Below are positions 25,649 through 29,009 of a stretch of 64,000 nt of DNA, piece after piece. Made by a program: the position numbers and the translations under genes. This DNA is from Chloroflexota bacterium (GTDB taxonomy: Bacteria; Chloroflexota; Dehalococcoidia; JACPQK01), in contig JACPQM010000002.1 of assembly GCA_016190505.1 (NCBI GenBank), positions 1 through 64,000 of the forward strand, given 5' to 3'. Position 1 is the first letter of the stretch. Each line of letters starts with the position of its first letter. The notes beneath the pieces were generated by a model. That model was not told where the DNA came from, made no database searches, and was given only the letters and a program-made list of their open reading frames with translations.

Positions 25649-27730
25649 TCAAGCCTTTCGGGCGCGGACCAGGATGCCCTTGAGGTGAGGGATGCCTGTC
25701 ACCGGGTCACGGTGCTGGGTGGAGGTCAGCTCATTGACGTTGGCTTCGGCCCAGCCATGGGGTATGGAGATGACCCCGGGCATGATGTCCACCGACGTCT
25801 TCAGGCGTAGCTTGATGGCAGCATGCTGGCTCTCAACCTCGACCATGTCCCCGTCGGCCAAACCCTGCTCGCGGGCAGTGTCCGGGTGTACTGTAGCCAC
25901 GGGCTCGGGAGCGCGGGCACGTAGCTTCTGTATCTCCCGCATCTGGGAGTGGCTGAACTGGGCCTCGCGGTCACCGCTTACCAGGATCAACGGGTATTCC
26001 TTGAACACACCTGGAGCGGTCACTGGGCTGACAGTCGGCTCGTAGTAGGTGGGCATGGGGTGGTAGCCCAGCTTCTCCAGGGTATCCGAATAGAGCTCGA
26101 TCTTCTGGGAGGGGGTAGGGAAGGGCTTGGAGCCAAGGGCTTCCTGGCCATACTTGGTCTCCCCATACAAAAGGCCGTGGGTGGGCATGGCCCGCATCTT
26201 CTCCGTGGACAGGTTCATGTCCTTGACTTCGTAGTCCACGTATTCTTCTTCGGTGCGCCACGGGAAGTAGTTCCCGTAGCCCATGCGCTGGGCCAGAGTG
26301 GTCCAGAACTTGAACTCGGACCAGCACTCGCCGGGCGGCTCCACCACTTTCGGGCGCAGACAGAGGTAGGGGATTCCCTGAGTCACCGCGTAGCTATAGC
26401 CCAGGCCCGTCTTCTCCAGGAAGGTGGCTGCGGGCAGCACAATATGGGCGAGCTTGGCGGTCTCGGTCATGCGGACGTCCATGACCACGAACATCTCCAG
26501 CTTTTGGAAAGCCTCCCTGAAGCGCTGGCTGTCGGCCTGGGTGAGGACGAAGTTGCCAGCGTTGAGGAATACCATCTCTATGGGATAGGGCTTTCCGTCC
26601 AGAATGGCGTTGGGCAGCGAGATGCCCTGGCCCTCGCCGAAGTTGCGGCCCCAGAGCTCCCAGTGGATGGGGTAGTCCTCTGTCCCCACGGGTTGGCCTT
26701 CGGGCAGGGGGTAGTCAAGTCTGGGCCAGTAGGGCATAGGCACCCGGATCCAGGACCCCTTGCCGTAGATGCTGCCGGTGATGGTCTGGAGGATGGAGAA
26801 GGCCCTGGAGATCTGGAACCCGGCTTCCTGCTGGCCCAGGGCGCAGGTGCCCTGGATGATGCAGCCGGGCTTCTTGGTGGCAAATGTCCTGGCGACCTCC
26901 CGGATGTCTTCCGCCGAGACCCAGGACAGCTCGGCGGCCCACTCGGGGGTGTACTGCTTGACGTGCTCCACGATCCGGTCGAAGCCCAGGGCATACTTGG
27001 CCACGAACTCCCTGTCATAAAGGCCTTCGGTGACTATGATGTTAATCATGGCCAGGGCGATGGCCAGGTCAGAGCCCGGCCGGGGCTTGAGATGCTTGCC
27101 CTGGTTAGCCAGGGGAATGCGCTTGGGGTTAATGGTAATCAGCTCCGTCCCTGCGCGCACAGCCTCGAGGATGCGACGGGACTTGGGCGGGTCAGAGTGC
27201 GACGGGTTGTGCCCCCACAGCAGTATGGAACCTGCGCCCTCGATGTCTTCGAAGGGGAATCTGCCGAACGTGACCATCCTGGCACGTATCATGTCCGTGT
27301 ATCATATTCCTGGATTCAAGTAGTTGGGGGTGCCGAATACGGCAGCGAAGCGTTGAGACAGGGTCTGGGACTCGCGCTCCTCAGCCCCCAGGGCGCCCAC
27401 TTGGATCGCCACCGCCCGCGGCCCTTCCCTCTCCTTTATCTCGTTCATCTTGGAGATGATGGCGCTAAGGGCCTCGTCCCAGGTTATGCGCTGGAAACCA
27501 TCCCCGACTCGCCGCTGCGGGTAGAGCAGGCGCTCTGGGGCATATTCCCATTCCACGATGCGATTGCCCCGGGGGCAGATTAGCCCCTTGTTCAGGGGGT
27601 GCTCCTTCATCCCCTCCACCTTCACCACGCGCCCGTCCTTCACGTGGGCGTCCAGCCCGCAACTATTGACACAGAGCATGCAGTTGGTCTTGACGATTTC
27701 GTCGGCAGTCACTGGGCTCGCCTGGGGCAT
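25649..27730 (-). CDS. Molybdopterin oxidoreductase (DMSO-reductase family), probable selenoprotein
   Basis: 693 residues if the in-frame TGA at 27304-27302 is read as selenocysteine (residue 143). The N-terminus has the [4Fe-4S] site NCMLCVNSC...GLICPRG. LLWGHNPSHSDPPKSRRI, VFLNAGNFVLTQAD and AHIVLPAATFLEKTGL of the bis-MGD fold follow. The C-terminal cap has HPDTAREQGLADGDMVEVES. The TGA comes after FGTPNYLNPGI and before YTDMIRARMVTFG, the place where family members carry the Ser, Cys or Sec that binds Mo or W. Translation is uninterrupted on both sides. The formate-dehydrogenase U-H pair is absent (U-Y here), so it is not a standard FDH; the substrate is unknown. The ATG at 27730 follows GGGAGGTG. 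Confidence 0.8.
27268..27287 (-). promoter_or_regulatory. SECIS-like hairpin after the in-frame TGA
   Basis: Fourteen bases after the TGA the message reads ACGTGCC-AGGAT-GGTCACGT: a 7-bp stem with one bulged U and a five-base loop that contains GG. Bacterial SECIS elements have this form, with the loop G about 16-37 bases after UGA; here it is 23-24. It is within the coding sequence, as bacterial SECIS elements must be. Confidence 0.55.
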
Positions 27731-27802: not shown

Positions 27803-27970
27803 CTACCAAGGGTCCGCTGGTTGATAGCCTAGGCTATGCGCGATTTCCGCTGCGGTAAAAGCTTCGTGTGGGTTGCCCTCGAGGAACCTGATTATTATCT
27901 GCTCCTGTGAGCTAAGGCCCCTGTCGAACTGTTCCCTGGGGATAGGCATATTCGTATTCTCCGGCTCCAT
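27803..27970 (-). CDS. Small 55-residue protein, helix-turn-helix-like
   Basis: A short frame from ATG 27970 encodes MEPENTNMPIPREQFDRGLS... and then ...IIIRFLEGNPHEAFTAAEIAHSLGYQPADPW. The pattern FL..NP.EAFTA.EIA..LG resembles the start of a winged-helix regulator. It lies between the Rieske fusion gene and the molybdopterin enzyme on the same strand. The ribosome site is weak. Probably a real small gene. Confidence 0.55.
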   Translation of the reverse strand: MEPENTNMPIPREQFDRGLSSQEQIIIRFLEGNPHEAFTAAEIAHSLGYQPADPW

Positions 27971-28013: not shown

Positions 28014-29009
28014 CTATGGCCGCGCCGGACCCACCAGGATGTCCTCTCCTCTCACACGTACCGCGTGGTGCACCAGCGGCTCATGCGCCGGTCCGGCCAG
28101 CGCCTCGCCGGTAGCCACACGGAAGCGGGCGCCATGCCAGGGGCAGGTCAATACACCGTCCCGGAGCGGGCCAATGGACAGCGGCGCCTCCGCATGGGGG
28201 CAGGTCTCAGCCAGGGCGTAGAAGCTGCCTGCATCGTTGACCAGCAGCACCCGCTGTCCCCGGTAATGAACTAGCCTGGTGCTGCCTGGTGCCACCTCGT
28301 CGGCGCGGGCCACTCTCCGGTACATACCCCTTTCGGCCTCAGCCAGGGCCGAGCGCATGACCTTAGCTTCAATGGGGCGCAGCTTTTCCAAGGGGGCAAA
28401 GTCTGGCGTCTGATCGTAGGTCGCGGGATCGAAGGTGGCTATGTCCCGCACGAAGTTAGACCGTTGCCCGGTCAGGTCGTTGAGCCGCAGTGGCAGCCGC
28501 ACCATGTCCCCATAACCGGAGACCTCATGGGGGTAGAAGGGAGTCTCGTGGCGCAGGCCGGCCCGGTCCCGCGCCAGCCGCCCGAAGGCCTTGGCCTCGC
28601 GCACCGGAATTGGCTCGGCCAGGGGCAGCACCACGTGGAAGCCCACCGTGGGGAACTCGACCAGGACCTGGTCGGGCTGCACACCAAGGTGTCCCAGGGC
28701 GCTGATCAACGCCTGGACCTGGTCCCGCTTGGCCCGCAGTTCGGGCACGAGCTGCTCCCACGACTGCTTGAGCCGGGGAAATACGTCCATGTCGTACATG
28801 AGGAAGCCGACATTGCCTCCGGCGTCCAGATTGTAGGCGCCGTAGATGTGGGTCTGGTTGACCTGCTCCAGGAAGCGCTCGTAGGTGAAGCCGCCGGGCA
28901 GGGTCCTGAATGAGCCGTCCACCTGCTGTTGAGCGACTGCGTCGGCCCGGCCCCGGTAGCAGCGGACGAAAAGCTCGTAGCGGCGTTTCATCGTTCTGTC
29001 GTTGCTCAT
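28014..29009 (-). CDS. Primase-like (AEP/TOTE-type) domain fused to a Rieske [2Fe-2S] domain
   Basis: 331 residues. Residues ~8-190 resemble the archaeo-eukaryotic primase domain of TOTE conflict systems: RYELFVRCYRGR, then IYGAYNL...VGFLMYDMD with the metal-type D73-x-D75. EFPTVGFHVVLPL follows with H125, then GYGDMVRLPLR. Residues ~230-331 are a clear Rieske domain with Cys270-x-His272 (TCPHAEAPLS) and Cys289-x2-His292 (CPWHGARF). The ATG at 29009 follows GGAAGG. I know of no described role for this pairing. The Rieske call is firm; the primase call is by motif and less sure. Confidence 0.7.
   Translation of the reverse strand: MSNDRTMKRRYELFVRCYRGRADAVAQQQVDGSFRTLPGGFTYERFLEQVNQTHIYGAYNLDAGGNVGFLMYDMDVFPRLKQSWEQLVPELRAKRDQVQALISALGHLGVQPDQVLVEFPTVGFHVVLPLAEPIPVREAKAFGRLARDRAGLRHETPFYPHEVSGYGDMVRLPLRLNDLTGQRSNFVRDIATFDPATYDQTPDFAPLEKLRPIEAKVMRSALAEAERGMYRRVARADEVAPGSTRLVHYRGQRVLLVNDAGSFYALAETCPHAEAPLSIGPLRDGVLTCPWHGARFRVATGEALAGPAHEPLVHHAVRVRGEDILVGPARP

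Follow-up and report, generated by a model that had tools for sequence, protein, structure and literature searches.

The known activity of PrimPol domains is the copying of nucleic acid. Their motifs have been given as hhhDhD/E (motif I), sxH (motif II) and hD/E (motif III), and mutating motif I or motif III ablates activity, metal binding being prevented (PMC10345425). In MpCAPP, a CRISPR-associated PrimPol (CAPP), the motif I residues are D177 and D179 (PMC8211822), and CAPP residue E260, together with metal A, contacts the initiating nucleotide. Here we describe a small family of proteins in which a domain related to the CAPPs, lacking the motif III acid, is followed by a complete Rieske domain.

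The window analysed in this study is a stretch of 64,000 nucleotides from a Chloroflexota bacterium of the Dehalococcoidia (contig JACPQM010000002.1 of assembly GCA_016190505.1, positions 1 to 64,000 of the forward strand). Positions 28014 to 29009 of its minus strand encode a protein of 331 residues, with coordinates and frame exact, an ATG at 29009 and a purine-rich ribosome-binding site upstream of this ATG. Its features are the following:

28014..29009, minus strand: PrimPol-Rieske fusion gene (ORF of 331 aa, with orthologues of 334 aa and 321 aa)
28377..29009, minus strand: PrimPol (AEP) domain, residues 1-211
28785..28802, minus strand: motif I, LMYDMD, with D73 and D75 kept (shared by the 3 fusions and all 40 relatives)
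28635..28658, minus strand: motif II, EFPTVGFH, with G123 and H125 kept, Ser replaced by Pro and the usual Lys/Arg by Val in the alignment
28524..28547, minus strand: motif III region, ETPFYPHE, with the catalytic Glu (E260 of MsCAPP) replaced by P157 and PKQ by PHE
28479..28511, minus strand: GDMVRLPLRLN, residues 167-177, aligned with the canonical GN(L)xKLPLGxH; all fusions share a new D168, and N177 takes the place of the His
28326..28376, minus strand: inter-domain linker helix, residues 212-228 (predicted helix 215-227)
28017..28325, minus strand: Rieske [2Fe-2S] ferredoxin domain, residues 229-331
28194..28202, minus strand: Rieske cluster ligands C270-P-H272, invariant in the three orthologues
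28134..28145, minus strand: Rieske cluster ligands C289-P-W-H292, Cys and His invariant in the three orthologues

An initial annotation of this gene had proposed a primase-like domain, with YDMD and GFHVVLP motifs (residues 72-75 and 123-129 of the protein), joined to a C-terminal Rieske domain, and both domains were borne out. The N-terminus matched the NCBIfam model PrimPol_Msp (NF040561, CRISPR-associated PrimPol) with an E value of 4.4e-13, its 48.6 bits not reaching the curated family score of 200 bits, as well as the PADLOC PrimPol model (E 2e-10) and the solved Marinitoga CAPP chain (MsCAPP, 7nqf; E 7e-4). The model of the full-length fusion was moderate (pLDDT 71), and the full-length fold search was crowded out by Rieske matches, so a separate model of the PrimPol domain was built from an input alignment with 24 relatives and used for a search of its own. 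The resulting model (pLDDT 93.8, pTM 0.90) has the alpha/beta unit and the RRM-like unit of the Prim-Pol (AEP) superfamily, and it matched MsCAPP with a Foldseek E value of 5e-13 and, in fold comparison (7nqe), with Z 22.3 and 2.4 A over 193 residues at 20% identity, whereas LigD and Pri1 scored well below this (Z ~12.5). As the alignment included PrimPols, the domain model is biased towards the PrimPol fold; independent sequence matches, however, back the fold. A likeness to TOTE-type primases had first been suggested, but the closest solved relative is a CRISPR-associated PrimPol, and the AEP-TOTE model PF22548 (E 6e-6) gave 24.7 and 26.4 bits, under the Pfam gathering score of 27 bits. By sequence and by a confident predicted model, the N-terminus thus groups with the CRISPR-associated PrimPols.

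The C-terminal part is a complete Rieske domain (PF00355, E 9.3e-17, 61.2 bits versus a cut-off of 20.3), carrying the CxH and CxxH ligands of Rieske-type ferredoxins as CPH and CPWH. When the Rieske part of the full-length model was laid on BphA3, Z was 19.4 with 1.0 A over 103 residues, and this fold comparison puts the domain with the electron carriers of dioxygenase type.

Two further full-length copies were found in other genomes. One, of 334 aa, lies in another Chloroflexota family (locus G058, JACQTY010000140) and is 56% identical to the window protein; it was found by searching the window's class. The other, of 321 aa and 52% identical to the window protein (locus L041, JAUYJC010000493), comes from a metagenome-assembled genome (MAG) labelled Deltaproteobacteria and placed in Myxococcota, and was found by a pattern scan of ~85,000 species genomes, a strict pattern by which more divergent members may be missed. 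With these two independent orthologues, a frame artefact confined to the window, which had been raised as a possibility, and an assembly chimera are both excluded. No further full-length fusion was present among ~1,300 genomes searched directly, so the family is very rare. The three known fusions share 49-57% identity, conserve all Rieske ligands and form a single, fully supported clade, set off by a long branch, in a tree with 40 relatives. Their presence in two phyla suggests horizontal transfer, provided that the MAG is correctly binned. As to a viral origin, viral contigs gave no relative when the queries were close to the fusion and canonical PrimPols only when the query was broader, and this origin was rejected; phages likewise yielded none, and plasmids yielded only distant staphylococcal matches of <30% identity.

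The window's own genome carries a truncated second copy (G000:C4:22682-23182, equal to L021:9683-10186), 85% identical over residues 27-170 and without the Rieske part, which adjoins a BcrA/BadF-type ATPase gene and a nitroreductase. Over the shared codons 27-168, the window fusion and this copy differ with a dS of 0.63 and a dN of 0.08, a dN/dS of ~0.13, and therefore the PrimPol domain has been under purifying selection. A non-functional relic or a chance fusion might look just as rare as this family and might leave a fragment of the kind seen in the window's genome, but three intact copies with this divergence, these ligands and this dN/dS, conserved over two phyla, largely refute such an origin, and we consider it very improbable.

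The active site was compared in an alignment of the three fusions with 40 relatives (22 viral and 18 cellular), E260 being placed at the glutamate of VEIFPKQ by counting from D177/D179 along the aligned MsCAPP chain. Motif I (D73 and D75) and motif II, as G123-x-H125, are present in all three fusions, and E118 is also kept. Motif III is absent: the equivalent of E260 is Pro in 3/3 fusions versus Glu in 40/40 relatives, which makes the fusion a relative by PrimPol fold rather than a full member by motifs. Other residues are lost too. The K and Q that follow the motif III Glu in 40/40 relatives have become H/I and E/T, the motif II Ser (40/40) has become Pro, the Gly of LPLG (40/40) has become R, and the His of LPLGxH (39/40) has become N. 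Conversely, D168 is a new acid, shared by every fusion and the truncated copy, at a position where the relatives have N or S. As a separate observation, one viral PrimPol (L103:2462-3022) has Asn for the LPLGxH His, like the fusions, in an otherwise canonical active site.

With the motif III Glu and other nucleotide-site residues consistently lost, synthesis of DNA or RNA by this domain is unlikely, judging from the alignment. The initial annotation had considered redox-gated nucleic-acid synthesis, and the substitution of the motif III carboxylate speaks against it. Such an active, redox-gated primase-polymerase would need D168 or E155 to replace the motif III Glu. The conserved DxD and His and the invariance of D168 are in its favour, and D168 could in principle stand in for the lost acid; however, neither E155 nor E162 is conserved in the Myxococcota orthologue, the nucleotide site has also lost its K, Q, S, G and H, and the fusions have neither an accessory priming domain (PriCT, zinc finger) nor replication or repair genes as neighbours at their loci. 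We therefore hold this alternative to be improbable. At the same time, the retained DxD and His hint that binding of a metal-nucleotide still matters.

The fusion's neighbours at all loci are metabolic/redox or catabolic genes. In the G058 locus, a nitroreductase, the fusion (after a gap of 16 bp) and a tandem Rid gene (after ~60 bp) lie on one strand, with a sensor-kinase/response-regulator pair nearby and a phage-type integrase at 1.4 kb. At the L041 locus, an Rrf2 regulator lies 0.7 kb from the fusion; this locus also encodes a hemerythrin-like protein and a molybdopterin oxidoreductase that has a 4Fe-4S subunit. In the window, an IMP dehydrogenase-like gene lies upstream and a molybdopterin oxidoreductase just downstream. 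An all-against-all comparison of four loci left the nitroreductase and the tandem Rid protein as the specific shared neighbours, each common to two loci; the window copy itself has neither. The sole close homologue of the G058 nitroreductase in the window's genome (55%) is 1.5 kb from the truncated copy, and the best tandem Rid homologue of the Myxococcota genome (52%) is on the fusion's contig, ~6 kb away:

L032:5264-6004 (G058) and L041:14667-15356: genes for the tandem Rid-family protein in the two phyla where it is linked to the fusion; G058:C65 carries a second copy

The molybdenum enzyme was rejected as a conserved neighbour, the window and L041 enzymes being only 28% identical, and the haem-O synthase and oxidase genes common to the G058 and L041 loci were set aside as common genes. 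No RNA element was found by Rfam around the fusion gene. The tandem Rid protein shows weak similarity to PD-T4-2_B of PADLOC.

Two observations were made on the genes downstream of the fusion in the window. The molybdopterin oxidoreductase gene (25649-27730, minus strand) is interrupted by an in-frame TGA at 27304-27302 (NYLNPGI-U-YTDMIRARM), presumably at the position of the Mo ligand, by eye against formate dehydrogenases. Because the genome encodes SelB (above cut-off), this gene is probably one for a selenoprotein, not a pseudogene. Between it and the fusion, an ORF of 55 residues (27803-27970, minus strand) resembles, as judged by eye, the beginning of a winged-helix domain.

These neighbourhoods bear on a role in defence, which had been proposed for the protein at the outset in the form of a defence sensor. 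A sensor of nucleic acids that descends from a CRISPR-associated PrimPol and acts through a redox effector would fit the nearest families, the sporadic distribution across phyla and the integrase near the G058 fusion. However, the four loci contain no CRISPR-like repeats, the neighbours tested included no cas or defence genes (PADLOC being among the checks), and the surrounding genes are housekeeping and redox genes; we think a defence protein distinctly improbable.

The main rival to a ferredoxin is a redox sensor, in which the former PrimPol domain would still bind DNA or nucleotides, the oxidation state of the Rieske cluster would alter this binding, and nearby redox genes would be regulated. 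This is consistent with the preserved fold and its DxD and His, with the linkage to redox genes, and with the regulators near the L041 and G058 fusions. On the other hand, the fusion has no helix-turn-helix or recognised DNA-binding module, and its Rieske domain is of the electron-carrier type, and so we regard this possibility as unlikely while giving it more weight than any other rival.

The reading that we favour, still tentatively, is that of a Rieske ferredoxin of redox metabolism, its CAPP-type PrimPol domain having been retired from polymerisation and kept as a module that binds a ligand or a partner. The protein might work as follows: the Rieske domain would hold a [2Fe-2S] cluster and act as a one-electron carrier in the manner of dioxygenase ferredoxins such as BphA3; the PrimPol domain, having kept the fold, the motif I Asp and the motif II His but neither the motif III acid nor the greater part of the conserved residues at the nucleotide site, would no longer make DNA or RNA, and may instead bind a metal-nucleotide ligand or a partner enzyme; and this binding module would dock or regulate the ferredoxin in what may be a setting of redox metabolism. 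Should the former primase domain instead be coupled to the Rieske cluster as a sensor that binds nucleotides or DNA, for which we see a rather small chance, one protein would read both redox state and the binding of a nucleotide or nucleic acid, and would represent a new class of redox-coupled PrimPol-fold protein.

A literature search on primase or Prim-Pol together with Rieske, most subscription papers lying outside its coverage, found no description of the pair, in agreement with what the initial annotation had said. Both domains are known; their combination with a broken active site appears to be new. A conserved family with a lost metal ligand and an intact electron carrier would be an unusual reuse of a polymerase fold in redox chemistry or sensing, and it suggests that a DNA-copying fold has been recycled for redox metabolism. 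It also calls for caution, as a PrimPol-like match is not always a primase or a CRISPR adaptation polymerase.

Compared with known systems, the fusion shares the PrimPol fold, the motif I DxD and the motif II His with the CAPPs (MsCAPP/MpCAPP, PDB 7nqe/7nqf/7p9j, NF040561). Unlike them, it lacks the motif III Glu (E260), PKQ and LPLGxH, has no TPR or PriCT domain and no CRISPR neighbours, and carries a Rieske domain. The AEP domain of TOTE conflict systems (PF22548) aligns to fusion residues 43-196, but with the sub-cut-off scores given above, and the TOTE partner domains are missing. The Rieske ferredoxins of aromatic dioxygenases, BphA3, HcaC and CarAc, resemble the fusion in their full-length domain, CxH and CxxH ligands and Z of ~19; they differ in that the fusion has a PrimPol domain attached, and no linked ring-hydroxylating oxygenase was seen near the fusions. 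PriX, finally, is itself a PrimPol-fold protein. It serves as a non-catalytic subunit of archaeal primase (PMC12019639) and, unlike the fusion with its Rieske domain, it remains in the primase complex and is without an iron-sulfur domain.
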